Source: Cellulomonas soli
GTDB lineage: Bacteria > Actinomycetota > Actinomycetes > Actinomycetales > Cellulomonadaceae
NCBI RefSeq assembly: GCF_013409305.1
Contig: NZ_JACBZJ010000001.1
Coordinates: forward strand, 1,922,001 to 1,986,000
DNA length: 64,000 bases
Reading direction: 5' to 3'
The position numbers were made by a program, and so were the translations under genes. The notes below the pieces were generated by a model. It did not search any database, was not told the origin of the DNA, and was given only the letters and a program-made list of their open reading frames with translations. The number at the start of each line of letters is the position of its first letter. The stretch's first letter is position 1. Shown here piece after piece: positions 15,336 through 29,218 of this stretch.

Positions 15336-16372
15336 GCGTCGAGCCTCTCCAGTGCAGGGGTGCTGAGGGCGGCGCCGTCGGCGTCGTCGTCGGCGGGGGA
15401 GCGAGGGGCGTCCTCGTGCGCGGGGCGCCCGGTCAGGCTGAGGAAGACCTCGTCGAGCGAGGGCTGCTGCACGGCGACCTCGCGCAGGCTGATGCCGGCG
15501 GTGCGCAGCGCGACGAGCACGTCGCCGGCGTCGTCGGCCGCGCTGACCGGTGCGGTGAGCCGACCGTCGGGTGCGTGCGCCGCGTCGACGCCGAGCACCG
15601 CGTGCAGCAGGCGGCGGGCCTCGGGCTCGTCGGCCGGGTCGGTCAGCCGCAGCTGCAGGCGTGCGGTGCCGACGGACACCTTGAGCTCGGTCGCGGTGCC
15701 CTCGGCGACCACGATCCCGCGGTCGATCACGGCGATCCGGTCGGCGAGCTGGTCGGCCTCGTCGAGGTACTGCGTGGTCAGCAGCACCGTCGAGCCGCCC
15801 TCGACGAGCCGGTGGATCGTGTCCCACATCTGCGTGCGGGTGCGCGGGTCGAGACCGGTGGTCGGCTCGTCGAGGAAGATCAGCGGCGGCTGCGAGATGA
15901 GCGAGGCCGCGAGGTCGAGACGCCTGCGCATGCCCCCGGAGAAGTTCTTCAGCGGGCGGGCCGCAGCCTCGGTCAGGCCGAACTCCTCGAGCAGCCGGTC
16001 GGACGTACGGCGCGCGTCCCGGCGGGACAGGCCGTGCAGGCGGGAGAAGAGCACGAGGTTCTCGGTCGCGGACAGGCCCTCGTCGACCGAGGCGTACTGG
16101 CCGGTGACGCCGATGAGCCGGCGCACCGCCTGCGCCTCGCGCACGACGTCCCGGCCGAACACGGTGGCCGTGCCGGCGTCGGGCCGCAGGAGGGTGGCGA
16201 GCATGCGGATGGTGGTCGTCTTGCCGGCACCGTTGGGGCCGAGGAAGCCGTACACGGAGCCGGCGCGGATGCGCAGGTCGACGCCGTCGACGGCACGGTT
16301 GTCGCCGAAGGTCTTGACGAGCCCGTGCGCCTCGACGGCCCAGGGTGAGGTGGCAGCTGGGGTCCTTGTCAT
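15332..16372 (-). CDS. ABC transporter ATP-binding protein, DrrA-like
   Basis: A 346-residue ATPase of the daunorubicin-resistance class. It has Walker A GPNGAGKTTT, Q-loop VTGQYASVDEGLS, signature FSGGMRRRLDLA, Walker B LIFLDEPTTGLD and the DrrA-specific TTQYLDEADQLADRIAVID. The C-terminal extension includes REVAVQQPSLDEVFLSLTG, which is typical of the DrrA family. ATG 16372 has no ribosome site but CAGGGT six bases upstream, suggesting a leaderless transcript. Just beyond lies an array of four 11-bp repeats (16392-16435), a likely operator for the neighbouring AfsR-type activator. First gene of the DrrAB pair. Confidence 0.93.
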   Translation of the reverse strand: MTRTPAATSPWAVEAHGLVKTFGDNRAVDGVDLRIRAGSVYGFLGPNGAGKTTTIRMLATLLRPDAGTATVFGRDVVREAQAVRRLIGVTGQYASVDEGLSATENLVLFSRLHGLSRRDARRTSDRLLEEFGLTEAAARPLKNFSGGMRRRLDLAASLISQPPLIFLDEPTTGLDPRTRTQMWDTIHRLVEGGSTVLLTTQYLDEADQLADRIAVIDRGIVVAEGTATELKVSVGTARLQLRLTDPADEPEARRLLHAVLGVDAAHAPDGRLTAPVSAADDAGDVLVALRTAGISLREVAVQQPSLDEVFLSLTGRPAHEDAPRSPADDDADGAALSTPALERLDA

Positions 16373-16391
16373 GGGACGACCCTGCGCCCGT

Positions 16392-16435
16392 GCGCTCACG
16401 CGGCCCTCACACGGCGCTGACGTCGCGCTGACATC
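16392..16435 (-). promoter_or_regulatory. Four tandem 11-bp direct repeats, SARP-type operator
   Basis: Reading the minus strand, the units are GATGTCAGCGC, GACGTCAGCGC, CGTGTGAGGGC and CGCGTGAGCGC, end to end. All share GT-S-AG-S-GC in exact 11-bp phase. The last unit ends 7 bases before the -10-like CAGGGT (16379-16384), which is 6 bases ahead of the drrA-like ATG. SARP activators bind heptamers at 11-bp spacing, with the last repeat about 8 bp from the -10 box, so the geometry fits. Confidence 0.7.
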
Positions 16436-16524
16436 GCCGGACCCGCACCCGACCTGCACCTGCGGCCTTTACGCTGGCCGTACCCGTGTCGACGGGTGCA
16501 CCTGCCGTGTGAAGGGAACGAGCC

Positions 16525-17772
16525 ATGACCCAGGACCCGTCCGCCGCACAGGGGGTCGCCCCGCTGGCGCCGCCGACCCCGCTCGAGGCGCCGTTCGCGC
16601 TGACGGCACCCGAGCCGGTCAAGCCGGTCGCGCTGACCGCGGCACCGGCCATGGCACCCGCGGTGGACCCGCAGGTCGTGCCCGGGCTCGACGCGAAGGT
16701 CGACTCGTACCTGTCGTCGTTGACCGCCTCGCCGGCCGGTTCGCCGCAGTTCGCCGCGCAGGCGGCCGACGTGCGCACGATGGGTGACGCGGACATCCGG
16801 CACGCAGCGGAGTCCTCCAACCGCCTGCTGCAGACGCCGGTCAACGCGATCCGGGAGGGCGGTCTCGCCTCGGGCTCGAAGGTCGGCAGCACGTTGCTCG
16901 ACCTGCGGCGCACGGTCGAGGACCTCGACCCCTCGGGTGCCCAGGGCGCCCGCAAGATCCTCGGGTTCATCCCGATGGGCGACAAGATCGTCGACTACTT
17001 CCGCAAGTACCAGTCCGCGCAGAGCCACCTCGACGCGATCCTGCACGCGCTGCGGGACGGCCAGGACGAGCTGCGTCGGGACAACGTCGCGCTGACCATG
17101 GAGAAGACCGCGCTGTGGGAGGCGATGGGTCGCCTCAACCAGTACGTGTACGTCTCCGAGCGGCTGGACGCCCGCCTGTCGGCGGCGATCGCCGACCTCG
17201 AGGCCACGGACCCGGACCGCGCCCGGGCCCTGCGCGACGACGTGCTGTTCTACGTCCGGCAGAAGCACCAGGACCTGCTCACCCAGCTGAGCGTGTCCAT
17301 CCAGAACTACCTGGCGATCGACATCCTGGTCCGCAACAACGTCGAGCTCGTCAAGGGCGTCGACCGGGCCGCGACCACCACGATGTCGGCGCTGCGCACG
17401 GCCGTCATCGTCTCGCAGGCGCTGAGCAACCAGAAGCTCGTGCTGGACCAGATCTCGGGCCTGAACGCCACGACGTCCGACCTCATCGAGCGCACGTCGG
17501 TCATGCTCAAGGACAACTCCGCGGCCATCCAGCAGCAGGCGGCCTCGGCCACGATCGGCCTGCCCCAGCTGCAGGCCGCGTTCGCGAACATCTACGCGAC
17601 GATGGACGCCATCGACTCGTTCAAGGTGCAGGCCCTGGACTCCATGGCCGCCACGATCGGCACCCTGGAGACCGAGGTCGGCAAGTCCCAGAGCTACCTG
17701 GCCCGCGTGCAGCAGCGCGACGAGCGGCTCGCCGCGGGGGCGCTCGACCTCGACCCGACCGCCGGTCGGTGA
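16525..17772 (+). CDS. telA: TelA-family toxic anion resistance protein
   Basis: A 415-residue soluble, largely helical protein of the TelA/KlaA family, associated with tellurite and toxin tolerance in other bacteria. Family landmarks include NRLLQTPVNAI, LDLRRTVEDLDPS, FIPMGDKIVDYFRKYQSAQ, LRRDNVALTMEKTALWEAMG and the long coiled-coil-like C-terminal half (YLAIDILVRNNVELVKGVDRA onward). A proline- and alanine-rich N-terminus of about 50 residues is probably disordered. AAGGGA precedes ATG 16525. It is the first gene of the eleven-gene PknG operon, 55 bases ahead of the next; TACGCT at 16470-16475 could be its -10 box. Molecular function is unproven for the family. Confidence 0.9.
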   Translation: MTQDPSAAQGVAPLAPPTPLEAPFALTAPEPVKPVALTAAPAMAPAVDPQVVPGLDAKVDSYLSSLTASPAGSPQFAAQAADVRTMGDADIRHAAESSNRLLQTPVNAIREGGLASGSKVGSTLLDLRRTVEDLDPSGAQGARKILGFIPMGDKIVDYFRKYQSAQSHLDAILHALRDGQDELRRDNVALTMEKTALWEAMGRLNQYVYVSERLDARLSAAIADLEATDPDRARALRDDVLFYVRQKHQDLLTQLSVSIQNYLAIDILVRNNVELVKGVDRAATTTMSALRTAVIVSQALSNQKLVLDQISGLNATTSDLIERTSVMLKDNSAAIQQQAASATIGLPQLQAAFANIYATMDAIDSFKVQALDSMAATIGTLETEVGKSQSYLARVQQRDERLAAGALDLDPTAGR

Positions 17773-17827
17773 CGGCGGGCGGTCCGCGATCCGGCAGGCC
17801 AACCACGACGGGACGGGAGGGGTACGG

Positions 17828-18403
17828 ATGGGCGTCGGCGACCTGTTCGCGCGGCTGACCGGCCGCGCCGAGCCGGAGCGCGCGGCCGTGCCCTCCGCCC
17901 CGACGGCCGACGACCTCGAGGCGGCGCTCGTGCGCGTCGAGGCGATGGTCGCCGGCGGGGCCGTGCCCGCACCCGTGGCCTCGCGCGTCGCCCGGGTCGT
18001 GCGCGTCGTGCGGGACACCGTGCCGCGGCTCGACCGCCTCGGCGCGGGCTCGCAGGACGCGTACGACGTGATGGCCACCGCCACCCGCTACCTGCCCGAG
18101 GCGGTCGGCGCCTACCTGCGGCTGCCGCGCGAGTGGGCGAACTCCCGCCCTGTCGACAACGGGCGGTCGTCGTTGCTCGTGCTCGTCGACCAGCTCGACC
18201 TGCTCGGCCGCACGATGGACCAGGTGCTCGACGCGGTGACCAGGGCCGATGCGGTCGCCCTGGTCGCGCACGGACGGTTCCTGGCCGAGAAGTTCGGCCA
18301 CCCCGAGGGTTCGGGTGCGCTCAGCCTGGGTGCCGCACCCCTGGTGCCGCCCGCGCCCGCCGGTCCGGGTCAGCCCACGCCGCTCCCGGGACCGACGTCG
18401 TGA
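17828..18403 (+). CDS. Helical hypothetical protein of the TelA-PknG operon
   Basis: A 191-residue protein with no signal peptide or membrane span. Its middle is mostly helical (DDLEAALVRVEAMV, VASRVARVVRVVRDTVPRL, YDVMATATRYLPEAVGAYLRL, LVLVDQLDLLGRTMDQVLDAV), ending in a proline/glycine-rich tail. Position directly after telA suggests a partner of TelA, comparable to the XpaC-type proteins that accompany telA elsewhere, but I do not see enough to assign it to that family. GGGAGG precedes ATG 17828. Its TGA overlaps the next GTG by 4 bases. Confidence 0.75.
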   Translation: MGVGDLFARLTGRAEPERAAVPSAPTADDLEAALVRVEAMVAGGAVPAPVASRVARVVRVVRDTVPRLDRLGAGSQDAYDVMATATRYLPEAVGAYLRLPREWANSRPVDNGRSSLLVLVDQLDLLGRTMDQVLDAVTRADAVALVAHGRFLAEKFGHPEGSGALSLGAAPLVPPAPAGPGQPTPLPGPTS

Positions 18404-19818
18404 CGGCCCCGCTCGCGGACGCGCTCGCCGCGCTGTCGGCCGTGGCGTCCGCCGCCGGTGTCGACCCGGCCGAGGCCGCACCGGAAGGGGCCCGCCTGGC
18501 GGCTGCCGTGGCCGAGTCCTCGCCCGGGGCGGCGGCGGACTGGTCCGTGCAGACCGGGACCGACGGCGGCACGCAGGCGTTCTTCGACGCGGCCTCGCGC
18601 GGGCGTCGGTGGCGGTCCGCGCCGACGGACCACCTGTCGTTGCTGGTCGCGTCGGGCTCGCCGCACGCACGGGCGTACGCCGAGGCGCTGGTCGAGGTGA
18701 CCGCGGCGGCCGCGACGCTCGGTGCGCCCACGGCCCGGGTCGCGGGCAACGCCGCACTCGCCGGGGCGGCGCAGCTCGCCGCGCTGCCGGTGGCGGCGGA
18801 CGCGGGCGGTGCCCGGCCGGCGCTCGGCCCACCCGTGCTCGGCCTGCCGGACGGGCTCCCGGGACAGACCGCCGGGACGGTCGCCGCGCACCCGGCGTCC
18901 GCGGCGACCGACGCTTCGCCCGGGGTCGACACGCCCGCCCCCACACCGCGCCGCAGCGCCGAGGAGCTGCTCGCCGAGCTCGACGAGCTCGTCGGCCTGG
19001 GCACGGTCAAGCGCGAGGTGCACCAGCAGGCCGCCGTGCTGCGCATGGAACGGCTCCGGGAGGCCGAGGGGCTGAGCACGCCCACGCTCACCCGGCACCT
19101 GGTGTTCACCGGCAACCCGGGGACGGGCAAGACGACCGTCGCCCGTCTGGTCGCCGGGATCTACGCCGCGCTCGGCGTGCTGAGCACCGGGCACCTCGTC
19201 GAGGTCGACCGCGACGACCTCGTCGCCGGCTACCTCGGGCAGACCGCGCCGCGCACCACCGCGGTCGTCGAGAAGGCCCGCGGCGGCGTGCTGTTCATCG
19301 ACGAGGCCTACGCGCTCGTCGGGGACGACTACGGGCGTGAGGCCGTCGACACCCTGGTCAAGGCCATGGAGGACGACCGCGGCGAGCTCGTGGTCGTCGT
19401 CGCCGGCTACCCCGGGCCGATGTCCGCGCTCATCGCGACCAACCCGGGTCTGGCCAGCCGCTTCCGCACGACGATCCACTTCCCCGACTACACCGACGAG
19501 GAGCTCGTGACGATCTTCGGGCTGCTCGTCGACGGCGGGGACTTCACCGCGGGCGACGACACGCTGGCCCGGCTGCGCGAGATCCTCGCCGGCACGCCCC
19601 GCGGCGAGGGGTTCGGCAACGGCCGGTTCGTGCGCAACGTCCTGGAGACCGCGATCGGCAACCACGCCTGGCGGCTGCGCGACGTCACCGACCCCACCCC
19701 CGAGCAGCTGCGCACGCTGCTGCCCGAGGACCTCGAGGACCACACCACCGCCGACCCGGCGGGTCCCGCCGTCACGCAGGGCACACTCGACCCTGCACAC
19801 CGAGGAGACGACACGTGA
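18400..19818 (+). CDS. CbbX/SpoVK-class AAA+ ATPase
   Basis: A 472-residue protein. The first 180 residues are alanine-rich and unlike known domains. From about residue 190 a single AAA+ module follows: LLAELDELVGLGTVKREV, Walker A GNPGTGKTT (about 238-246), LVEVDRDDLVAGYLGQTA, Walker B VLFIDEAYAL (about 298-307), sensor-1-like VVVVAGYP, arginine-finger region NPGLASRFRTTI and a C-terminal lid with GNGRFVRNVLE. These are marks of the CbbX/SpoVK class of hexameric protein remodellers. No RuBisCO gene is present, so a remodelling role on another partner in this operon is more likely. GTG 18400 overlaps the previous stop (GTGA). Confidence 0.9.
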   Translation: MTAPLADALAALSAVASAAGVDPAEAAPEGARLAAAVAESSPGAAADWSVQTGTDGGTQAFFDAASRGRRWRSAPTDHLSLLVASGSPHARAYAEALVEVTAAAATLGAPTARVAGNAALAGAAQLAALPVAADAGGARPALGPPVLGLPDGLPGQTAGTVAAHPASAATDASPGVDTPAPTPRRSAEELLAELDELVGLGTVKREVHQQAAVLRMERLREAEGLSTPTLTRHLVFTGNPGTGKTTVARLVAGIYAALGVLSTGHLVEVDRDDLVAGYLGQTAPRTTAVVEKARGGVLFIDEAYALVGDDYGREAVDTLVKAMEDDRGELVVVVAGYPGPMSALIATNPGLASRFRTTIHFPDYTDEELVTIFGLLVDGGDFTAGDDTLARLREILAGTPRGEGFGNGRFVRNVLETAIGNHAWRLRDVTDPTPEQLRTLLPEDLEDHTTADPAGPAVTQGTLDPAHRGDDT

Positions 19819-21140
19819 CGATCACGGCCCCCACACCGCCCGTGGCGGTCGGCCCGCCGGACCCCGGCGCGACCGCACCGCCGACGAGCCCCGCTGCGCT
19901 CGCCGCCCGGGTGCGTGCCGCCCAGGGCCGACCGACGCCGGTGCGGATGCGCAGCCTCGCCGCCGCGCTCGTCGTGGTCGGCCTGCTCGTCTCGGCGACC
20001 GTCGGCTGGTCCTTCTGGTCGGCCGACCGGGCCCTGGGGCGCGCCGACGCGAACGCCGCCCAGCTCGTCCGGCTGCAGGACCTGCAGACCCGGCTCGTGC
20101 GGGCCGACGCGGACGCGACCAACGCGTTCCTGGTCGGCGGGCTCGAACCGGCCGACCAGCGCGCCGACTACGACCAGGCCATCGCCGACGCCACCGTGCT
20201 CGTCACGCAGGCCGCCCGCGCGCAGCCGGCCGACGGTGCCCTGCTCTCGGACCTCAACACCGCGATCGTGGCGTACACGAGCGACGTCGAGCTGGCCCGG
20301 GCCGCGAACCGGCAGGGTCTGCCGGTCGGCTCCCAGTACCTGCGCAACGCCTCCGCGTCGTTGCGCGCCGACGCCCTGCCCGCCCTGGCCGCGCTCATCG
20401 ACGCCGACGCCGCACGCGTGGAGGCCGAGCTGGACAACGCGCGCAACGCCTGGGGCCTGGCCACCGCTGCCGGGCTCGTCGCGATCGCCGCGCTGGTGGT
20501 CGGCTCGGTCTGGCTGGCACGCCGCACGCACCGGTACCTGAACGGGCGGATGTTCGGCGCCGGCGTCGTGCTCGTCGTGCTGACGATCGGCTCGACGATC
20601 GTGCTGGGGTCGGTCACCTCGCAGGTCACGCACGTGCGCGACACCGACTACGCGGGCGCCCTCGCGCTCGCGCAGGCCCGGCTCACGGCGTACGACGCGA
20701 AGGCCGACGAGTCGCTCACGCTCATCGCCCGCGGCAGCGGCGGTGCGTTCGAGGACGCCTGGGTGGCCTCGGCCGCCGCGACCGTGTCCTCGCTGCAGAC
20801 CGCCTCGGACGCCGGTGCGGTCTCGCCGACGGTCGCCCTCGAGTGGGACTCGTACGCCCAGCTGCACCAGGAGATCCGCGCGCTCGACGACGGCGGGGCC
20901 TGGGACGACGCGGTCGCCGCCGCGACCGACCGTTCCGAGGGCTCGGCCAACGCGGCGTTCGCGGCGTTCGACACCTCCAGCGGCGACGCGCTCGACCGTG
21001 CGGGCGAGGCCACCTCGGCCGGTCTCGCGGACGCCGCCGGCGGTCTGACCCTGGCGACCTGGCTCGCGGTGCTCGCGGGCCTCGTGGTCGCCGCCCTGTG
21101 CTGGAGCGGGATCTCCCGCCGGATCGAGGAGTACCGGTGA
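19815..21140 (+). CDS. glnX: GlnX-like four-helix membrane sensor protein
   Basis: A 441-residue membrane protein. One helix (about 38-60) precedes an external helical region to about 210 (LVRLQDLQTRLVRADADATN onward). Two close helices (about 214-235 and 246-268) lead to a second external region, and a last helix (about 408-430) ends in a short basic tail, SRRIEEYR. This topology, and the position between an AAA+ gene and a GlnH gene upstream of pknG, match GlnX, which in mycobacteria relays binding of aspartate or glutamate by GlnH to PknG. GAGGAG precedes GTG 19815, which overlaps the previous stop. Sequence of this class diverges strongly; topology and context carry the call. Confidence 0.85.
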   Translation: MTITAPTPPVAVGPPDPGATAPPTSPAALAARVRAAQGRPTPVRMRSLAAALVVVGLLVSATVGWSFWSADRALGRADANAAQLVRLQDLQTRLVRADADATNAFLVGGLEPADQRADYDQAIADATVLVTQAARAQPADGALLSDLNTAIVAYTSDVELARAANRQGLPVGSQYLRNASASLRADALPALAALIDADAARVEAELDNARNAWGLATAAGLVAIAALVVGSVWLARRTHRYLNGRMFGAGVVLVVLTIGSTIVLGSVTSQVTHVRDTDYAGALALAQARLTAYDAKADESLTLIARGSGGAFEDAWVASAAATVSSLQTASDAGAVSPTVALEWDSYAQLHQEIRALDDGGAWDDAVAAATDRSEGSANAAFAAFDTSSGDALDRAGEATSAGLADAAGGLTLATWLAVLAGLVVAALCWSGISRRIEEYR

Positions 21141-22120
21141 CCACGACCCGCCGCACCCGCACGCCCCTGATCGCACTCGTCGTGGCCGTGACGGCCCTGC
21201 TGGGAGCGTGCGGCGGCACCGACGTCTACGCCGAGACGACCCTGCCGTCGCCCACGCCGACCGCCGCCGCGACGACGGCCGCACCGACCGCGGCCGCCAC
21301 CCCGGCCGTGTGCGCCGACCCGCTCGCCTCCTACGCGCCGCAGGGGCCGCTGCCGGCCCCCGACGCGCTGCCCGCCGGCTCGACGATGGCCGAGATCCGC
21401 GCGCGGGGACGGCTCGTCGTCGGGGTGTCCGCCGACTCCCTGCTGCTCGGGGCACGCAACCCGATCAGCGGGCAGATCGAGGGCTTCGACATCGACATGG
21501 CCCGGCTCGTCGCCCAGGCGATCCTGGGTGACCCCGACGCGATCGAGCTCAAGGTCATCACCGCCGCGCAGCGCATCCCCTCGCTGCAGGACGGCACGGT
21601 CGACCTCGTGGCCCGCAACATGACGATCACCTGCGACCGGTGGACGCAGATCGCGTTCTCGGCCGAGTACTACGAGTCCGGCCAGAAGGTCCTCGTGCCG
21701 CTCGCCTCGACGGCGACCTCGCTCGACGACCTGGCCGGCCAGCGCGTGTGCGCCCCGGCCGGCACGTCCAGCCTGGCGAACCTCGCCGACCACCCAGACG
21801 TGGTGGCCGTCGCGGCGACCACGCACACCGACTGCCTCGTGCAGTTCCAGCAGGGGCAGGTCGACGCGATCACGGGTGACGACACCGTGCTCGCCGGCCT
21901 CGCAGCGCAGGACCCGTACGCGAAGGTCGTCGGCGAGGCGTTCACGCAGGAGCCCTACGGCCTGGGCATGAACAGCGACGACGTCGACCTGGTCCGGTTC
22001 GTCAATGCGGTGCTCGAGCAGGCGAAGGCGGACGGCACGTGGACGGCCTCGTACGACCGGTGGCTCGCGGACGCGCTGGGTGCCGCGCCCGCGCCGCCCG
22101 TCGCCGTGTACGGGCGGTGA
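21137..22120 (+). CDS. glnH: GlnH-like amino-acid-binding lipoprotein
   Basis: A 327-residue lipoprotein. The signal ends at lipobox LLGAC with cysteine 25, followed by a threonine/alanine/proline linker of about 40 residues. A family-3 substrate-binding domain follows: IRARGRLVVGVSADSLLLGARNP, GFDIDMARLVAQAILGD, VDLVARNMTITCDRW, VCAPAGTSSLANL and YGLGMNSDDVDLVRFVNAVL. These fit polar-amino-acid binding proteins; in the PknG system GlnH binds aspartate and glutamate. No importer permease or ATPase accompanies it, which argues for sensing rather than uptake. GTG 21137 overlaps the glnX-like stop. Confidence 0.92.
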   Translation: MTTTRRTRTPLIALVVAVTALLGACGGTDVYAETTLPSPTPTAAATTAAPTAAATPAVCADPLASYAPQGPLPAPDALPAGSTMAEIRARGRLVVGVSADSLLLGARNPISGQIEGFDIDMARLVAQAILGDPDAIELKVITAAQRIPSLQDGTVDLVARNMTITCDRWTQIAFSAEYYESGQKVLVPLASTATSLDDLAGQRVCAPAGTSSLANLADHPDVVAVAATTHTDCLVQFQQGQVDAITGDDTVLAGLAAQDPYAKVVGEAFTQEPYGLGMNSDDVDLVRFVNAVLEQAKADGTWTASYDRWLADALGAAPAPPVAVYGR

Positions 22121-23334
22121 CGGCTGCCGTGGCCGACGCCCCCGTCGTCGCACCCGACGCGCCCGCGGCCCCTTCGGGCTGGGGGCGCCCGGTCGACGCG
22201 GCGGCGACCGCGACCTACCTGGAGCGGCTCGGCGCCTGGCGCGCGGGCCGTCGGGCCGAGCTCGACGCGCTCGACGCGGCGGCGCTGGCCTCGGGCGGGA
22301 ACGACGTCACCGCGGACGTGACGCTCGCGATGGCCGTGTTCCAGACCGTCGCGACCCGCCACGACGAGCTGCTGCGCGTCTGGGCCGGTGGGCGCGTCGG
22401 TCCCGTCGAGCTGTCCCGGCTCTCCGCGATGGTCTGGGGTCGCACCGACCCGGCGGCCACGGCCGGTGGCGCGGCGGGTGCGGACCCGCACGGCGTCTCG
22501 CTGCCCGAGGCGTGCCGGCTCTCGGACGCCGTGACCGCCCAGCTGCGGCAGCGGCTCGCCCTGACTGCCGTCGGCGGCGACGTCGTGGGACGCCTCACCG
22601 CGCTGCGCGCCTCGGCCGAACGCGTCCGCGACCTGGTCGACGCGCTTCCGGCCGGCCCGGCCCGGGACGCCTCGACCCGACGGCTCGCGGACGTCGACCG
22701 CAGGCTGACCGAGGTGACCGAGCGGGCGCGGCGCGGAGCCGACGTCGGCGGGCAGCTCGGCCCGCTGGACACCGACGTGGCCACGGCCGAGCGCGACCTC
22801 ATCGTGGCCGGTGCGCGGGCACGCGACGACGCGCGCGACGTCGCCCGGGCGACCGCCTGGCGGGCCGGGCTCGCGGCGCGGGCCACCCGCCTGGAGGCCC
22901 TCGTCGAGCAGTGCGTGGCCGCGGTCGTCCCGGCGCCGGTGCTCGGTGTGCCGCGGGTCGACGCGCTCGGCCCGGTGCCCGCCGACGCGGACGCCGTCGA
23001 CGCGTACCTGGTCCGGCTCGACGCCGTCGAGCGGGCGCTGGCGCACGCCGAGGCCACCTACCAGGCGCCCCTGCGCGAGGTCGAGGACCTGCGCGGTCTG
23101 CTCGGTGCCACGGACGCGCAGGCCGTCGCCCGCGGGCGCGAGGGACTTCCCGAGGTCGGGGCGCTCGCCGGGGTGGCCGCCGAGGTGCTCGCCGCCCGAC
23201 CCGTCGACCTGCCGCGCGCCCGGGCGCTCGTCGCCGCCTACCGGGTGCTGCTCGACGCCGCCCCGCCCGCCGTCACGCCACCCGCGGGGCCCGCCCGCCC
23301 TGCCTCCTCGACCGCCCCTGGACGGAGCTCATGA
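22117..23334 (+). CDS. Unknown helical protein between glnH and pknG
   Basis: A 405-residue cytosolic protein I cannot assign to a family. It is almost wholly helical and alanine/arginine/aspartate-rich, with heptad-like stretches (YLERLGAWRAGRRAELDALD, TRRLADVDRRLTEVTERAR, YLVRLDAVERALAHAEATYQ) suggesting coiled coils or a helical bundle. A conserved-looking central part, VSLPEACRLSDAVTAQLRQR, stands out. The C-terminus is disordered (proline and serine). No zinc or catalytic motif is seen. It is locked into the operon by 4-bp overlaps on both sides, so it may be a scaffold or adaptor for PknG or GlnX. Confidence 0.8.
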   Translation: MTAAVADAPVVAPDAPAAPSGWGRPVDAAATATYLERLGAWRAGRRAELDALDAAALASGGNDVTADVTLAMAVFQTVATRHDELLRVWAGGRVGPVELSRLSAMVWGRTDPAATAGGAAGADPHGVSLPEACRLSDAVTAQLRQRLALTAVGGDVVGRLTALRASAERVRDLVDALPAGPARDASTRRLADVDRRLTEVTERARRGADVGGQLGPLDTDVATAERDLIVAGARARDDARDVARATAWRAGLAARATRLEALVEQCVAAVVPAPVLGVPRVDALGPVPADADAVDAYLVRLDAVERALAHAEATYQAPLREVEDLRGLLGATDAQAVARGREGLPEVGALAGVAAEVLAARPVDLPRARALVAAYRVLLDAAPPAVTPPAGPARPASSTAPGRSS

Positions 23335-25559
23335 CCTGCACGCAGCCCGGTTGCACCGGGACGATCCTCGACGGGTACTGCGATGTCTGCGGCACCCCCG
23401 GCCCCGACGGGGCGACCGGCACCACGACCGGCACCACCGCGAGCGCAGCGGCCGGACCTGCCGGCACGGACGACGCGGTGTCGACCCGCACGTCCAGCCA
23501 GCGGCTGGCCTCCACCGCGATCGGCTCGGCACGCACCGGTCGTACCGGCACCACGCGCCGGGTCGGCTCGTCGTCCACCCGACTGCGCGCGGCACGGCTC
23601 GGTGCCGGGCTGACGACCATCGCCCCGGCACCCGCGGTCGACGCGGCCGCCGCGCTCATGGCCGACCCGCAGGTCGCCGAGGAGAAGCGGTTCTGCCCGT
23701 CCTGCGGAGCCCCTGTCGGGCGTGCCGTGGGCGACCGGCCCGGGCGCACCGAGGGGTTCTGCCCGCAGTGCCGCAACGCGTACTCGTTCGCCCCCAAGCT
23801 GCACCCCGGCGACCTGGTCGGCGGGCAGTACGAGGTCGCCGGCGCGCTCGCCCACGGCGGTCTGGGCTGGATCTACCTCGCGCGCGACAAGAACGTGTCC
23901 GACCGCTGGGTGGTGCTCAAGGGCCTGCTCAACACCGGTGACGCCGACGCGCTCGCCGCCGCGATCGCCGAACGGCAGTTCCTCGCCCAGGTCGAGCACC
24001 CGCGCATCGTCGAGATCTACAACTTCGTCACGCACGACGGCGCCGGGTACACCGTCATGGAGTACGTCGGCGGGCACTCCCTCAAGGGGCTGCTCAAGGA
24101 CCGCATGGTGGCCGCCGGTCACTACGACCCGTTCCCGCTCGACCAGGCCATCGCCTACGTCCTGGAGATCCTGCCCGCGTTCGAGTACCTGCACGACCTG
24201 GGCCTGGTCTACTGCGACTTCAAGCCGGACAACCTCATCCAGATCGGTGACGACGTCAAGCTCATCGACCTGGGTGGCGTGCGCCGCCTGGACGACCAGG
24301 ACTCGGCGATCTACGGCACGGTCGGCTACCAGGCTCCCGAGGTCGCGGAGATCGGCACCTCGATCGCCTCCGACGTCTACACCCTCGGGCGGACCCTGCT
24401 GGTGCTCGCGATGGAGTTCCGCGGGTACCAGTCGACGTACGTCGACTCGCTGCCGCCGGTCGCGCAGACGCCGCTGTTCCAGCGGTACGACTCGTTCTAC
24501 CGGCTGATCAGCAAGGCGTGCGCCGCCAACCCGGACGACCGGTTCGCCTCGGTCGCCGAGCTGCGCGTGCAGCTGCACGGCGTGCTGCGCGAGGTCGTCG
24601 CGCACGACCGCCCCGAGGGCGGTGCCGCACGCGACGTGGCGCCCTCCCTGCTGTTCACCGCCCCGGACAGCGCCGCGGCGACGCTCACCTGGGAGCACCT
24701 GCCGCTGCTGCGGCCGGACACCGCGGACCCGCAGCTGGCCTGGCTGGCGACCGTCGACGTCCCGGGCGCGCGCGCCCGGCTGACGCAGCTGGACGCCGCC
24801 CCGCAGCGGTCGGCCGAGGTGCTGCTGGCGATGGGCCGTGCGGCGCTCGAGGCCGGTCTGCCGGACCGGCTCACGCAGGCGACGGACGAGCTGCTGGCCG
24901 CCGACGCGTGGGACTGGCGTGCGGTGTGGCTGCAGGGCCTCGGCGCCCTGGCGGCCGGTGACGGGAGGCGCGCGCAGGCCTCGTTCAACGCCGTGTACGG
25001 GCAGGTCGCCGGTGAGCTGGCGCCCAAGCTCGCGCTCGCGACGGCCTGCGAGGCGTCCGGGGAGCCGGACATCGCCGAGGCCCTGTACCTGACGTGCGCG
25101 CGCACCGACGGCGCGTACGTGCCGCCGGCCGCGTTCGCGATCGCGCGGATCCGGGCGGCGCGCGGTGACGGTGCGGGCGCGGTCGCGGCGCTCGACCTGG
25201 TGCCGCCGACCTCGCGTGCGTACACCGAGGCGCGGCGCCGCCGGGCGGTGACGCTCGTGGCGTCCGACGGGGGCCTGCCCGCGCTGGCCGAGGCGATGGC
25301 CTCGATCGAGGGGGTGGGCGTCGACCCGGTCGACGGCGCGTGGCTGACGGCCGACGCGCTGGCCCGGGCGCTGGCGATCGTGCGGGCATCCGGGCCGCAG
25401 CCGGCGCTGCGCATCGGCGAGCACCCCGCCGCCGAGGAGCCGCTGCGGGACGGTCTGGAGAGCACCTACCGGCGGCTCGCCGACGCGGCCGCCACGCCGC
25501 AGGAGCGGGTGGCGCTGGTCGACGCGGCCAACGAGGTCCGTCGATGGACCCTGCGATGA
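23331..25559 (+). CDS. pknG: Serine/threonine protein kinase PknG
   Basis: A 742-residue soluble kinase, close to the usual PknG length. An N-terminal zinc ribbon (Cys3, Cys8, Cys17, Cys20) is added before the rubredoxin-like element (Cys122, Cys125, Cys144, Cys147). The kinase domain has Lys197 (VVLKG), the non-RD catalytic loop YCDFKPDN (Asp296) and DLG (Asp313) in place of DFG, as in PknG; YGTVGYQAPE and SDVYTLGRTL follow. The rest is a TPR-like helical repeat region. In actinobacteria PknG adjusts 2-oxoglutarate metabolism by phosphorylating an FHA protein (GarA/OdhI) in response to GlnH/GlnX. A different FHA protein is encoded three genes downstream. ATGA overlap with the preceding gene. 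Confidence 0.96.
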   Translation: MTCTQPGCTGTILDGYCDVCGTPGPDGATGTTTGTTASAAAGPAGTDDAVSTRTSSQRLASTAIGSARTGRTGTTRRVGSSSTRLRAARLGAGLTTIAPAPAVDAAAALMADPQVAEEKRFCPSCGAPVGRAVGDRPGRTEGFCPQCRNAYSFAPKLHPGDLVGGQYEVAGALAHGGLGWIYLARDKNVSDRWVVLKGLLNTGDADALAAAIAERQFLAQVEHPRIVEIYNFVTHDGAGYTVMEYVGGHSLKGLLKDRMVAAGHYDPFPLDQAIAYVLEILPAFEYLHDLGLVYCDFKPDNLIQIGDDVKLIDLGGVRRLDDQDSAIYGTVGYQAPEVAEIGTSIASDVYTLGRTLLVLAMEFRGYQSTYVDSLPPVAQTPLFQRYDSFYRLISKACAANPDDRFASVAELRVQLHGVLREVVAHDRPEGGAARDVAPSLLFTAPDSAAATLTWEHLPLLRPDTADPQLAWLATVDVPGARARLTQLDAAPQRSAEVLLAMGRAALEAGLPDRLTQATDELLAADAWDWRAVWLQGLGALAAGDGRRAQASFNAVYGQVAGELAPKLALATACEASGEPDIAEALYLTCARTDGAYVPPAAFAIARIRAARGDGAGAVAALDLVPPTSRAYTEARRRRAVTLVASDGGLPALAEAMASIEGVGVDPVDGAWLTADALARALAIVRASGPQPALRIGEHPAAEEPLRDGLESTYRRLADAAATPQERVALVDAANEVRRWTLR

Positions 25560-26692
25560 CCGGCTCGGAGGTCGCTGCGCGCACGTGCGCGCACTGCGGC
25601 ACGATCGCGGCCGCCGATGCCGTGTTCTGCGAGGCGTGCGGGGCCGACCTGCCGGTCCTGGCGACGGTGGCGGCTGCCGGGGACCCGCGGCCCACGGCGG
25701 CCACGTCGGGCAGCAGCGCCGTGACCACGCCGCTGCGAGCGGTCGCCGCCGCGCACACGGCCGCCGCGGAGACCGCCCCGCTGTGCCCGGACCCGGCGTG
25801 CGGGGGAGCGGTCGACGCCGACGGCTACTGCACGGTGTGCGGCACGCTCGCCCCGCGTCCGCGGGACCACATGGTCGAGGCTCCCGCGGTCTGGGTCGCC
25901 TCGGAGTCGGACCGGGGTCGGCGTCACCACCGCAACGAGGACGCAGCCGCGCTGGCCGCCGATGCGGCGCCCGGCAGCTGGGCGGCCCTCGTGGTGTGCG
26001 ACGGGGTGTCGACCTCCGAGAGCTCGCACGTGGCGTCGTTGGCCGCGGCGCGCGCGGCCCGGGACGTCCTGGCGCGCGAGCGCGGTGCGGGCCTCGCGCA
26101 GGGGTCGGCGCTGCAGGCGCTGTCGGCCGGCCGGCTCGTGGCCGCGGGTGCTGCGGCGGCCCGCGCGGTCGCGGCGGTCACGCTCGCCGAGCACGTCGAC
26201 TCGCCGCCGTCCTGCACGTTCGTCGCGGCGCTCGTCGAGGGGCACCGGGTGACGGTCGGGAACGTCGGCGACTCGCGCGCGTACTGGGTGCCCGACGCCG
26301 GTGAGGGTCAGGTGCTGACCGGGGACGACTCGGTCGCGGCCGACCAGGTGCGCGCGGGTGTCCCGCGCACGCAGGCCGAGGCCGGACCGCAGGCGCACGC
26401 GATCACCCGGTGGCTGGGCGTCGACGCCGAGGACCAGGTCCCGACGGTGACGCACCTGCAGGTTGCGGAGCCTGGTTGGCTGGTGCTCTGCTCCGACGGG
26501 TTGTGGAACTACTGCTCGGAGGCGAGCGACCTGGCGGACCTGGTGCGCGGGGCGGTCGCGTCCGCGGGCGGCGACCCGGCCGCGGCGTGCACGTCGTTGG
26601 TCGACTGGGCGAACGAGCAGGGTGGCAAGGACAACATCACGGTGGCGCTGGCCCGGCTCGGCGCGACGACCGACGAAGGAGAACCCGCATGA
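25556..26692 (+). CDS. PP2C-family protein phosphatase with two N-terminal zinc ribbons
   Basis: A 378-residue metal-dependent phosphatase. Two zinc ribbons precede the catalytic domain: CAHCGTIAAADAVFCEACG (about 10-28) and CPDPACGGAVDADGYCTVCG (about 77-96). The PP2C core has RRHHRNEDA, VVCDGVS, GNVGDSRAYW, ITRWLG, LVLCSDGLWNY and GGKDNITVA, covering the manganese- or magnesium-binding aspartates. It should reverse phosphorylation by the adjacent PknG. ATG 25556 overlaps the pknG stop (ATGA); an in-frame ATG at 25544 behind a GAGG is a possible alternative. The second ribbon shares DGYCxVCG with PknG. Confidence 0.93.
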   Translation: MTGSEVAARTCAHCGTIAAADAVFCEACGADLPVLATVAAAGDPRPTAATSGSSAVTTPLRAVAAAHTAAAETAPLCPDPACGGAVDADGYCTVCGTLAPRPRDHMVEAPAVWVASESDRGRRHHRNEDAAALAADAAPGSWAALVVCDGVSTSESSHVASLAAARAARDVLARERGAGLAQGSALQALSAGRLVAAGAAAARAVAAVTLAEHVDSPPSCTFVAALVEGHRVTVGNVGDSRAYWVPDAGEGQVLTGDDSVAADQVRAGVPRTQAEAGPQAHAITRWLGVDAEDQVPTVTHLQVAEPGWLVLCSDGLWNYCSEASDLADLVRGAVASAGGDPAAACTSLVDWANEQGGKDNITVALARLGATTDEGEPA

Positions 26693-27972
26693 GCAGCTTC
26701 ACGGCCGCGGTCTACCAGAACGAGTTCCTGGCCGACGGGTCGACCGACGTGCACGCGATCGTCACGGTCGAGTGCACCGGCGCGGGTCAGGCCGGTCAGC
26801 AGGGCACGGGCGAGGCCGCCGAGCTGATCATCGTCGACTGCTCCGGCTCGATGGGGCCCGAGGGCATCCGGGCGGTCCAGGCGGCGGCCGCCGCGGCGCT
26901 CGACCAGATCCTGGACGGCACGTGGTTCGCCGTCGTGGCGGGCAACCACCAGGCCTACGTCCTCTACCCGTACAACCCGCAGCGGCTCACGCTGGCGCGC
27001 ATGTCGCCGCAGGCACGGCAGGAGGCGCAGGCGTCGCTCGCGGCGTTGCGGCCCGAGGGCGGCACGGCCATGGGCACGTGGCTCGAGCTGGCGGCGACCC
27101 TGGTGCGGACGGCGCCGACCGTGACGCAGCGGCACGCGATCCTGCTGACCGACGGCAAGAACCAGCACGAGACGCCGGCCGAGCTCGACGCGCGGGTGCG
27201 TACGGCGGTCGGCACGCTGCAGGTCGACTGCCGTGGGGTGGGCGCGGACTGGGAGGTCGGCGAGCTGCGCCGGATCGCCCAGGCGCTGCTGGGCACGGTC
27301 GACCTGATCCCGCGGCCCGACCAGATGGCCGAGGAGTTCGCCTCGCTCATGCGGGCGTCGATGGCACGTGGTGTCGCGGCGGCCGAGCTGCGGGTGTGGG
27401 CGCCGCAGGGCGCGCAGGTGCTGTTCGTGCGGCAGGTCTCGCCGTCCGTCGAGGATCTCTCGGCGCGGCGCAGCGAGGTCAATGCGCTGACCGGCGCGTA
27501 CCCGACGGGTTCGTGGGGCGACGAGTCGCGCGACTTCCACGTGGCGGTCCGGCTGCCGGCCTCGCGGCCGCTGGGTCAGGAGCAGCTGGCGGCGCGCGTA
27601 CAGCTGGTCGTGGGCGGCGAGGTGCAGTCGCAGGGTCTGGTGAAGGCGAAGTGGTCGGACGACGACGAGCTGACGGCCCGGATCAACCCGGAGGTCGCGC
27701 ACTACACGGGTCAGGCCGAGCTGGCCGAGGCGATCCAGGAGGGTCTGGCGGCGAAGGCCTCGGGTGACGACCGGACGGCGACCGCGAAGCTCGGACGGGC
27801 GGCCCAGCTGGCGGCCGAGACCGGCAACGAGGAGGCGACCGCGAAGCTGCGCAAGGTCGTCGACATCGAGGAGCCGGCGACCGGCAAGGTGCGCCTCAAG
27901 CGTCAGGTCGACCGGCTCGACGAGATGGCGCTGGACACGGCCTCGACGAAGACGACCCGGGTGAAGCGGTGA
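26689..27972 (+). CDS. VWA-domain protein
   Basis: A 427-residue cytosolic protein. The von Willebrand A domain has a complete-looking metal site: IIVDCSGSMG (Asp50, Ser52, Ser54), GGTAMGTWLELA and ILLTDGKNQH. It is followed by a beta-rich region (VAAAELRVWAPQGAQVLFVR onward) and a helical, charged tail (LAEAIQEGLAAKASGDDRTA to RVKR). VWA proteins of this kind act as metal-dependent protein-binding platforms and often pair with AAA+ ATPases; one is encoded in this operon. GAAGGAG precedes ATG 26689, which overlaps the phosphatase stop. Partner unknown. Confidence 0.9.
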   Translation: MSSFTAAVYQNEFLADGSTDVHAIVTVECTGAGQAGQQGTGEAAELIIVDCSGSMGPEGIRAVQAAAAAALDQILDGTWFAVVAGNHQAYVLYPYNPQRLTLARMSPQARQEAQASLAALRPEGGTAMGTWLELAATLVRTAPTVTQRHAILLTDGKNQHETPAELDARVRTAVGTLQVDCRGVGADWEVGELRRIAQALLGTVDLIPRPDQMAEEFASLMRASMARGVAAAELRVWAPQGAQVLFVRQVSPSVEDLSARRSEVNALTGAYPTGSWGDESRDFHVAVRLPASRPLGQEQLAARVQLVVGGEVQSQGLVKAKWSDDDELTARINPEVAHYTGQAELAEAIQEGLAAKASGDDRTATAKLGRAAQLAAETGNEEATAKLRKVVDIEEPATGKVRLKRQVDRLDEMALDTASTKTTRVKR

Positions 27973-28733
27973 GCGCCGGCACCTGCCCGCAGGGGCACCT
28001 GTCGCAGGCGGACGACTACTGCGACGTGTGCGGGGCGCCGATGACGGCCGCGGCACCTGCGGCGGCGCCCGCTGCTCCCGCCCCCGCCGCCTCGTCGTCC
28101 GCGACCCCGGCCGCGGCGGGACCGACGGCCGAGGTGCCGTGCCCGAACTGCTCGCTGCCGAACCTGCCTGGTGCGCTGTTCTGCGAGGGCTGCGGCTACG
28201 ACTTCACGACGGGGGCGCTGCCGCGTACCGCGGTGCCGGCGACGGTCCCGGACGTGAACGCGGCGGCTCCCGACGCGGCGGTGACCCTGTCGGCGCCGGT
28301 CGCGCCGGCCGTCCCGCTGGAGTGGGTGGCCGAGCTGTGGGTCGACCCGGACTGGTACGCCGAGCAGGACTCGACCGAGCCGTGCCCGTCGCCGGGGCTG
28401 CCGGTGTCCGTGCCGCTCACCGTCCGGTCGCTGCTGGTGGGTCGGGTGTCGCGCTCGCGGGGCATCCACCCGGAGATCGACTGCGACGGTGACGAGGCGG
28501 TGAGCCGGCGGCAGGCGCAGCTGACGACAGACGGCACGCGCTGGTTCGTCGAGGACCTCGCGTCGTCGAACGGCACGTACGTGGGCCCGGCCTCCGGTCC
28601 GCTGCCGACGGTGCCCCTGACGCCGGGGCAGCGCCGCGAGCTCGCGGAGGACGACCGCGTGTACGTCGGTGCGTGGACGCGCCTGGTGGTGCGGCGTGCG
28701 ACGCCGGAGGAGCAGGTCTCGGGCGTGGTCTGA
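27969..28733 (+). CDS. FHA-domain protein with two N-terminal zinc ribbons
   Basis: A 254-residue protein. Zinc ribbons CPQGHLSQADDYCDVCG (about 6-22) and CPNCSLPNLPGALFCEGCG (about 58-76) flank an alanine/proline linker. A forkhead-associated domain at about 150-245 shows LLVGRVSRSRGI, DEAVSRRQAQL, WFVEDLASSNGTYVG, the phosphothreonine-binding Arg, Ser and Asn pattern. It is the natural candidate to read phosphorylation made by PknG or removed by the PP2C protein of the same operon. It is not GarA/OdhI, which is shorter and lacks ribbons. GTG 27969 overlaps the VWA stop. Last gene of the operon. Confidence 0.92.
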   Translation: MSAGTCPQGHLSQADDYCDVCGAPMTAAAPAAAPAAPAPAASSSATPAAAGPTAEVPCPNCSLPNLPGALFCEGCGYDFTTGALPRTAVPATVPDVNAAAPDAAVTLSAPVAPAVPLEWVAELWVDPDWYAEQDSTEPCPSPGLPVSVPLTVRSLLVGRVSRSRGIHPEIDCDGDEAVSRRQAQLTTDGTRWFVEDLASSNGTYVGPASGPLPTVPLTPGQRRELAEDDRVYVGAWTRLVVRRATPEEQVSGVV

Positions 28734-28778
28734 GCCGGATGGGGAGCGGCCCGTGCGGCTGCGTTCTCGCCTGGCGGC

Positions 28779-28803
28779 GCGGGGGATCGGCGCGGTCCCC
28801 CGC
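28779..28803 (+). terminator. Candidate terminator of the telA-FHA operon
   Basis: GCGGGGGA (28779-28786) pairs with TCCCCCGC (28796-28803) across a 9-base loop, 46 bases after the last stop of the operon. It has no T-run, as is usual in actinobacteria. It ends just before the metal-type operator of the next gene. Confidence 0.5.
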
Positions 28804-28818
28804 GTGTGGCCTGCGCTG

Positions 28819-28847
28819 TTGCCGGGATACCCCTGGGGGTATAGGTT
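28819..28847 (+). promoter_or_regulatory. Promoter with CsoR/RicR-like operator in the spacer
   Basis: A -35-like TTGCCG (28819-28824) and -10-like TAGGTT (28842-28847) are separated by 17 bases. The spacer holds ATACCCC-TG-GGGGTAT (28827-28842), a perfect 7-bp inverted repeat of the form bound by copper-sensing CsoR/RicR-family repressors. A repressor bound there would block RNA polymerase directly. The regulator itself is not in the window. Confidence 0.65.
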
Positions 28848-28901
28848 CACTCCCGAACCTGACGTCCGCCCCCACGGCGGCCCGCCCGAAGGAGATCCCC
28901 C

Positions 28902-29018
28902 ATGTGCAGTCCTGCCCGCTGTTCGCGTTGCGGCAAGGTCACCTGGACCGGCTGCGGCATGCACGTCGACTCCGTGATGGCGGACGTGCCGCCGGCGGAG
29001 CAGTGCACCTGCCGCTGA
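28902..29018 (+). CDS. 38-residue six-cysteine microprotein
   Basis: MCSPARCSRCGKVTWTGCG and onward, ending EQCTCR: six cysteines (2, 7, 10, 18, 35, 37) and one histidine in 38 residues. ATG 28902 follows a strong GAAGGAG. Similar short CxxCGK-TW-GCG-H proteins occur in many actinobacteria as hypotheticals. The cysteine pairing C-x2-C plus the terminal C-x-C suggests zinc or copper binding. The upstream CsoR/RicR-like operator makes a metallothionein-like role attractive, as for mycobacterial MymT under RicR, but it is not MymT by sequence. It is followed by a hairpin terminator. Confidence 0.75.
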   Translation: MCSPARCSRCGKVTWTGCGMHVDSVMADVPPAEQCTCR

Positions 29019-29046
29019 GCCCCGACGGGGTCGTCCCCCGGCAGGA

Positions 29047-29092
29047 CGTGGCCACGAGCTGCCCGCTCCCGGCGCGGCGGCTCGTGGCCACG
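29047..29092 (+). terminator. Hairpin terminator after the six-cysteine microprotein
   Basis: A 13-bp perfect stem (29047-29059 with 29080-29092) around a 20-base GC-rich loop, starting 29 bases after the stop codon. It isolates the metal-responsive unit from the glycosidase locus downstream. Confidence 0.7.
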
Positions 29093-29134
29093 GTGCTGCT
29101 CGGCCCGCAGGTCGATCTTCGCTGATACCGAAAA

Positions 29135-29145
29135 CACCGAAAAGG
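29135..29145 (+). promoter_or_regulatory. Candidate LacI operator upstream of the GH121-like gene
   Basis: CACCGAAAAGG here is identical to 40520-40530 in the promoter of the sugar-binding-protein gene, in the same orientation. A partial copy, ACCGAAAAC, lies just before it at 29128. The site is 74 bases ahead of the GTG start, so the LacI encoded at 39316 may control both transcripts. The right half of the palindrome seen at 40532 is weak here. Confidence 0.45.
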
Positions 29146-29218
29146 GTTGCTGCCGCGTGGCGGCCATGGCACGCTTCGGGTGAATTCGTTGCTTTCTCAG
29201 CGTAGAGAGGCGTTCGAC

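Follow-up and report, generated by a model that had tools for sequence, protein, structure and literature searches.

The closest described relative of the system considered here is the GlnH-GlnX-PknG-GarA/OdhI pathway of mycobacteria and Corynebacterium glutamicum, and the literature on PknG signalling, in the portions available, centres on the three-gene operon of mycobacteria and corynebacteria, with pknG, glnX and glnH described in PMC6069109 and PMC8546545. According to the available part of PMC9769921, contacts between GlnH and GlnX and between GlnX and PknG are undemonstrated, and relatives of PknG in the Chloroflexi and Cyanobacteria have already been reported in the accessible text of PMC8546545. 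Here we describe a ten-gene operon containing pknG in Cellulomonas soli, located in the window, a stretch of 64,000 nucleotides corresponding to bases 1922001-1986000 of the single-contig 4.26-Mb genome. The genes telA, smallH, AAA, glnX, glnH, helK, pknG, PP2C, VWA and FHA run in this order on the forward (+) strand at 16525-28733, and the identical order is found in 56 non-redundant complete loci, the window counted, from several actinobacterial orders (58 complete loci minus two duplicates, L137 and L151, which equal L027 and L039). As far as the available text of PMC6069109, PMC8546545 and PMC9769921 goes, the block shares with the mycobacterial and corynebacterial pathway the domains of PknG, a four-transmembrane GlnX, the GlnH lipoprotein and the linkage of their genes, whereas it has seven more genes, an N-terminal ribbon on PknG, an altered GlnH pocket and its own PP2C and FHA. 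No description of the larger block was found in the available text of the open-licence literature, including PMC1262709, PMC12321487 and PMC7159879. We regard it as a real, conserved and apparently mobile signalling unit, in which a known pathway takes a larger form than in the published descriptions found there.

The kinase (23331-25559) belongs to the PknG family: a single chain combines the rubredoxin, kinase and TPR domains of PknG, with PF16919, PF00069 and PF16918 all above cut-off, preceded by an N-terminal zinc ribbon; the closest PDB entries are PknG structures (2pzi, E 7.9e-136), and glnX and glnH lie in the same operon. GlnX (19815-21140) is a predicted membrane transducer with four transmembrane segments by hydropathy, falling into subfamily NF058618 (291.6 bits, cut-off 250) and not into the equivalog NF041460 (104.2 bits against 780). 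GlnH (21137-22120) is a solute-binding protein (PF00497, SBP_bac_3) with one predicted transmembrane segment near its start and a lipobox-like LGAC recognised by inspection; among solved structures, those of mycobacterial GlnH come closest (6h2t, E 6.3e-70). The slot between glnH and pknG is occupied by helK (22117-23334), encoding a soluble protein of 405 residues without a family. Downstream of the kinase lie a PP2C phosphatase (25556-26692; PF13672, PF00481 and PF13240) with its catalytic motifs and an N-terminal zinc ribbon, a protein with VWA and VWA_3_C domains (26689-27972; PF18571, E 5.1e-20, and PF13768) in which the metal ion-dependent adhesion site (MIDAS) is intact (DCSGSM, GGTAM and TDG), and an FHA protein (27969-28733; PF00498 and PF12773) with two N-terminal zinc-ribbon-type cysteine motifs. 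Such N-terminal motifs are thus common to PknG, PP2C and FHA, a feature absent from an earlier note on this DNA. The operon begins with telA (16525-17772; 415 residues; PF05816, E 7.8e-90), whose product has the TelA domain of toxic-anion resistance proteins and is the sole TelA found in the genome, followed by smallH (17828-18403), which encodes a TelA-associated protein of 191 residues without a family name, recognised by alignment and by the TelA that adjoins it in other loci, and an AAA+ ATPase of SpoVK/EccA/CbbX type (18400-19818; PF00004 and PF17866, AAA_lid_6; Walker A GNPGTGKT). The earlier note had described an eleven-gene operon; the single-direction run and the named genes stand, the number being a miscount since its own list holds ten. 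Its ATGA or GTGA overlaps are borne out at all eight junctions from smallH/AAA to VWA/FHA, each of 4 nt, and telA and smallH are separated by a 55-nt gap.

The recurrence of this gene order and of its overlaps goes beyond chance. Seven of the nine junctions hold a 4-nt overlap in 44-53 of the 56 loci: smallH/AAA in 44, AAA/glnX and glnX/glnH in 53 each, glnH/helK in 48, helK/pknG in 52, pknG/PP2C in 50 and VWA/FHA in 48. At telA/smallH an overlap is seen in 4 loci, and at PP2C/VWA, where the window has one, in just 2. Key motifs are also retained across the ten-gene loci. The PP2C motifs N[EQ]D, GDSR, SDG and DN are present in 56/56 and DG in 54/56, the MIDAS of the VWA protein in 56/56, Walker A and B of the AAA protein in 55/56, and, in FHA, GRxS and the cysteine motifs in 56/56 and SxNGT in 55/56. 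Residues Arg159, Ser179 and Asn201 of FHA are invariant across an 11-row alignment; we take these to be the conserved residues of the phospho-threonine-binding face, and the protein has the residues expected of a phospho-threonine reader. At a further site the window's FHA has Gln where at least nine in ten rows of this alignment have His. The N-terminal ribbon of PknG is found in 56/56 ten-gene loci, in 28 of 47 other loci with pknG, PP2C, VWA and FHA, and in 0/12 three-gene loci. The proposal of the earlier note that the kinase forms a unit with its own eraser (PP2C) and reader (FHA) is in agreement with these data, as the genes are co-inherited, keep their key motifs mostly intact and appear to move between lineages together.

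Gene order around pknG was compared in near and wider relatives. Some of the gene calls, those based on GC at third codon positions, are rough, include some opposite-strand artefacts and served for orientation only. In the near survey a PknG TPR match was present in 17 of 39 genomes, the window's own included, comprising 16 of the 25 of the genus and one of another family. Eighteen regions from the 16 other genomes gave 16 operon loci, 15 of them complete and one cut by a contig start; the remaining two regions, both from genome G004, contain three more copies of pknG, none of them accompanied by the other nine genes. Extra copies outside the operon (L040 and L041 of G004, and L159) cluster with the ten-gene PknG of G004 on the tree described below, and the alignments of the L040 and L041 copies end near residue 640 of 742. 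Across the class, with up to six candidates scored per genome, 111 of 295 genomes had a PknG TPR above cut-off; 51 loci were picked from the phylum and class surveys by hand for diversity and are therefore a non-random set. A scan of named genomes provided the best 80 of at least 561 confirmed PknG relatives, and counts among these 80 are not prevalences because the query alignment started from ten-gene PknG. By script label they comprise 35 loci of ten-gene type (one of them, L125, without a detected glnH, and two, L137 and L151, being the duplicates named above), 23 with PP2C, VWA and FHA and at most one of telA, smallH and AAA, four more with PP2C, VWA and FHA on short contigs, three three-gene loci, one solo pknG, two partial loci, 11 cut by contig ends and one pknG with VWA and neither PP2C nor FHA.

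Ten-gene types occur in Cellulomonadaceae, Promicromonosporaceae, Intrasporangiaceae, Nocardioidaceae, Propionibacteriaceae, Kineosporiaceae, Beutenbergiaceae, one member of the Microbacteriaceae and unplaced metagenome-assembled genomes. The 23 loci with at most one gene of the added trio are from Streptomycetaceae (11), Micromonosporaceae (4), Thermomonosporaceae (3, with glnX-glnH placed after FHA), Nocardiaceae (2), Intrasporangiaceae (1), an unplaced metagenome-assembled genome (L153) and Tolypothrix (1). The one from Intrasporangiaceae, Phycicoccus elongatus (L150), keeps AAA, telA and smallH not being detected there. A wider core of glnX, glnH, pknG, PP2C, VWA and FHA, with helK where detectable, is thus seen in Streptomyces, Kitasatospora, Actinoplanes, Nocardia and Actinomadura, and the cyanobacterium Tolypothrix sp. 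FACHB-123 (L193) has a helK-pknG-PP2C-VWA-FHA-glnX block in which glnH was not detected. The trio glnX-glnH-pknG alone was found in eight loci of group f18, which by inference are mycobacteria and their kin, in one of group f90 and in three Pseudonocardiaceae. The earlier note had supposed that the sensor has been extended in this organism. This is not supported, since PP2C, VWA and FHA occur across many families, the form with all three being widespread and three-gene forms lying at two places on the unrooted PknG tree; judged from the loci compared, it is telA-smallH-AAA that is a clade-specific addition. Nor are the ten genes mostly unlinked in relatives, given the 56 loci of the same order. 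A second match to the pknG profile lies downstream of FHA in L117, L156 and L134, on the opposite strand in the last; further pknG copies accompanied by a VWA gene, with PP2C and FHA not detected, are seen in L045, L047, L064, L069, L070 and L077; and L058 (genome G209) has three pknG matches, two of them sharing a strand and the third lying on the opposite one together with helK and PP2C.

The PknG tree, which comprises 75 rows and was built by a quick method, is unrooted. The three-gene copies of f18 have as sister group the Nocardia copies whose loci also hold PP2C, VWA and FHA; the three-gene copies of the Pseudonocardiaceae and f90 are placed elsewhere, and copies from loci with PP2C, VWA and FHA turn up on many branches. 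The grouping of three-gene rows (ten, with one solo row) as one clade was rejected by the approximately unbiased (AU) test (p 0.006); this grouping and those concerning the window below were named after inspection of the tree. Read most simply, the unrooted tree would make the three-gene form a reduced one. Two Nocardia genomes have three PknG TPR matches apiece, so that duplication with loss explains the pattern as well as plain loss does. The 17 ten-gene rows fall inside one group of 23, together with four solo copies and with L150 and L153, neither of which has the full telA-smallH-AAA trio.

The window's copy of the block seems to have been acquired from outside the genus. Its PknG shares 57-61% identity with that of ten genus-mates, whereas identity reaches 75-85% for GarA and 66-74% for an FtsR-like protein encoded nearby; with G005, one of the ten, as reference, the PknG of the nine other mates is 71-84% identical. 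Against five genomes from other families the corresponding values for the window are 60-64%, 59-66% and 36-46%. In a tree of five concatenated proteins, also by a quick method, the window groups with Intrasporangiaceae, Nocardioidaceae and others; grouping it with seven genus rows was rejected (AU p 5.8e-5), as was grouping it with eight (p 8e-6), although the eighth row also fails to join the seven. Among the short flanks compared, the only counterparts of the window's upstream side were on the downstream sides of G003 and G213. The GC content of the three 4-kb bins within the block (0.746-0.766, other bins 0.694-0.755) neither supports nor excludes transfer. An apparent origin outside the genus argues for self-sufficiency of the block. 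As to its setting, no promoter or terminator was found at 16200-29300 in a scan confined to the sigma-70 consensus, tRNA and Rfam scans of the whole window gave no matches, and an open reading frame encoding 2108 residues lies downstream on the same strand (29147-35473).

In mycobacterial GlnH, S164, R169 and D250 hold the amino and carboxyl groups of the ligand and R147, T162 and W232 make contacts to its side chain (PMC6069109, available portion). Residue numbers were placed by counting on the 6h2t alignment, and all residue types agreed. At the positions of R147, R169 and D250 the residue is unchanged in 55 of 56 ten-gene GlnH proteins; the position of S164 carries Thr in 44 of them and Ser in 11, and Thr is also found there in 10 of 12 three-gene loci. 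The position of W232, in contrast, is His in 46/56 ten-gene proteins and Trp in 12/12 three-gene proteins, and that of T162 is Asn in 22, Ala in 19 and Thr in 13 of the 56. The window's own GlnH retains the amino and carboxyl anchor typical of Asp/Glu binding and has Arg, Asn and His at the side-chain contacts, one of three being kept. With the anchors kept and two side-chain contacts changed the ligand need not be aspartate or glutamate; it is likely to be amino-acid-like, and Asp/Glu cannot be assumed. The window's genome encodes a relative of GarA/OdhI that has a DTT motif (157.6 bits, below the family cut-off of 200). Such a relative was found at E ≤1e-20 in 30 of 30 genomes, 16 PknG-positive and 14 PknG-negative, and is above the family cut-off in one. 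The [DE]TT motif is kept in 13 of 13 readable PknG-positive and 10 of 13 readable negative genomes (three positive and one negative being unreadable by the pattern). Loss of the motif as a tracker of PknG absence was rejected, as it gave no discrimination, the motif persisting in most negatives. Carrying the Asp/Glu-GarA model over to this operon is uncertain, given that the relative is also present in 14 of 14 PknG-negative genomes and that the GlnH pocket is partly altered.

The helK protein matched no Pfam or NCBIfam family at E 0.001, its relatives giving scattered weak matches in single members. Of 15 loci lacking telA, 11 have at this position a protein with weak homology to helK (E 2e-5 to 4e-10), and helK was also detected in 11 of the 23 comparable loci of the best-80 set. 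Similarity outside the ten-gene type is always weak, which leaves helK as the core gene whose membership is least secure.

The smallH protein and its profile likewise have no Pfam, NCBIfam or PDB match, and 16 members searched against Pfam gave scattered weak matches, none in more than three. XpaC (PF10112), which we take to be a neighbour of TelA in Bacillus, offered a lead; its model was not among the hmmscan matches of these 16 at E ≤1, a profile-profile comparison, able to find a remote relation, not having been made. Among 25 genomes, TelA is found once each, inside the operon, in 8 of 8 ten-gene genomes, and occurs in 2 of 7 PknG-negative genus-mates and 2 of 10 others. At 14 loci outside the operon smallH relatives have TelA directly or one gene upstream in ten; three of the other four have a VWA protein and no TelA and the last lies on too short a contig. 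In G035 the contig breaks off after telA, smallH and the first part of AAA, and so probably carries another ten-gene locus. Beyond the Actinobacteria smallH is found in Sphaerotilus, with TelA, and in Deinococcus, without it. In the TelA/TerD (Ter) stress loci L104 (7080-8161), L108 and L113, in genomes or places without the ten-gene operon, a TerD protein follows TelA-smallH. TelA and smallH are together in both settings, but the window's operon has no TerD and ties the pair to a kinase sensor. A 2012 paper on Ter systems may describe the pairing already. Other loci share a VWA gene beside smallH (L096 of Sphaerotilus, L098 of Nonomuraea, L097, L111 and L112), TelA being present in the first two; in L097 (Deinococcus) and in L111 and L112 (two actinobacterial genomes) SBP_bac_11 and VWA are joined in one protein, followed by smallH. 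No kinase is seen beside these genes, and the three smallH proteins checked from such loci contain a transmembrane segment, which the window's smallH lacks.

These comparisons show the operon to be one conserved unit made of a wider core and three added genes, with mostly intact active-site motifs and an apparently foreign copy in the window. It probably represents the GlnH-GlnX-PknG pathway in an enlarged form that is self-contained and horizontally mobile. Beyond the anatomy, we infer its ligand, its protein contacts, its substrate and the role of TelA, smallH and AAA as follows. The lipoprotein GlnH would bind an amino-acid-like ligand outside the membrane and GlnX would relay the signal inward; helK may couple GlnX to PknG, or tether PknG, which would then phosphorylate a substrate. 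The FHA protein would read phospho-threonine, the VWA protein may scaffold the complex and PP2C would reset the system, with the zinc ribbons of PknG, PP2C and FHA possibly acting as docking tags that hold writer, eraser and reader together. TelA, smallH and the AAA ATPase would have been added in one clade, that of the window, as an output or remodelling arm. Several observations weigh against this scheme. The basis of the tag idea is co-occurrence only, and helK similarity outside the ten-gene loci is weak and often undetected. In the GlnH pocket two of three residues linked to selectivity differ, and GarA and mostly its TT motif persist without PknG. The FHA motif S[RH]xxA is present in just 32/56 ten-gene loci, the PknG DLG pattern in 43/56 and a strict rubredoxin pattern in 28/56, and among the 47 other loci, which include some cut or incomplete ten-gene loci, several motifs drop to 29-36 (GRxS in 36/47, the PknG catalytic loop in 29/47). 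The telA/smallH and PP2C/VWA junctions, mostly without overlap, may reflect more than one transcript.

The alternatives overlap with this scheme and with each other, and their likelihoods need not sum to one. If the operon were an ordinary nutrient switch, GlnH would sense Asp/Glu, PknG would phosphorylate GarA and the extra genes would be minor regulators, a view compatible with the enlarged pathway. PknG, GlnX and GlnH are clear relatives of the canonical proteins and the genome has the GarA/OdhI relative noted above; that relative is, however, equally present where PknG is absent, the Trp of the three-gene GlnH is mostly His, and the extra genes are kept across orders, making the ordinary switch rather unlikely. 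We would give slightly more weight, while still doubting it, to two separate modules on one transcript, a PknG sensor unit and an independent TelA-smallH-AAA stress unit, which partly coincides with the scheme above. The two parts differ in range, TelA-smallH is found elsewhere with TerD or VWA genes, and telA and smallH are separated by a gap without overlap in 52/56 loci. Yet overlaps are usual at smallH/AAA (44 of 56) and AAA/glnX (53 of 56), the operon TelA is the only one in all eight ten-gene genomes examined, and the ten-gene rows are nearly one clade, within which L150 has AAA without telA-smallH.

The presence of both VWA and AAA+ genes raises the further idea of a chaperone built from AAA+ and VWA proteins, or of a MoxR-VWA-like defence (conflict) system, with the kinase as sensor, and the earlier note had proposed an AAA+/VWA remodelling pair. 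AAA+ and VWA genes in one block are shared with the MoxR-VWA ternary systems (PMC7159879, available portion), from which the operon differs in that its AAA protein is not MoxR-type and no VMAP or iSTAND partner was seen, nor was a variable effector, there or in the relatives. The best NCBIfam models of the AAA protein are SpoVK, EccA and CbbX, all under their equivalog cut-offs, and no MoxR-type model is among its Pfam and NCBIfam matches. AAA is present in only 3 of the 47 other loci with pknG, PP2C, VWA and FHA; going by the locus survey these are L125, L140 and L150, all near or cut from the ten-gene form. The pair was rejected on these grounds, the AAA being of another type and the VWA protein usually occurring without it. 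PADLOC matched the kinase domain to 30 families (best PD-T4-6, E 1.7e-37), AAA weakly to IetA (E 5.2e-8) and PP2C to PDC-M21C (E 1.7e-6), as is to be expected of general kinase, AAA and phosphatase domains, and the other seven proteins had no match; a defence system was rejected as the principal explanation on this outcome, and we consider either version very improbable.

PknG of mycobacteria and corynebacteria probably relies on general phosphatases. The larger operon supplies its own phosphatase, a putative reader (FHA) and a putative scaffold (VWA), and names helK as a candidate coupler of GlnX and PknG. By this comparison, the three-gene operon studied so closely in mycobacteria would be a small version of a more extensive system. 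It is possible, and we put it forward tentatively, that the three-gene operon is stripped down and that the general form is a membrane-linked PknG-PP2C-FHA complex, held by zinc ribbons, VWA and helK, with ligands other than Asp/Glu and, in one clade, a TelA-smallH-AAA output arm. TelA, known mainly as a resistance label, is placed in a setting of signalling and acquires a recurring neighbour to which none of the libraries searched gives a family name, and if the three-gene operon is indeed stripped down, TelA-smallH would be a general response arm into which different extracytoplasmic sensors plug.

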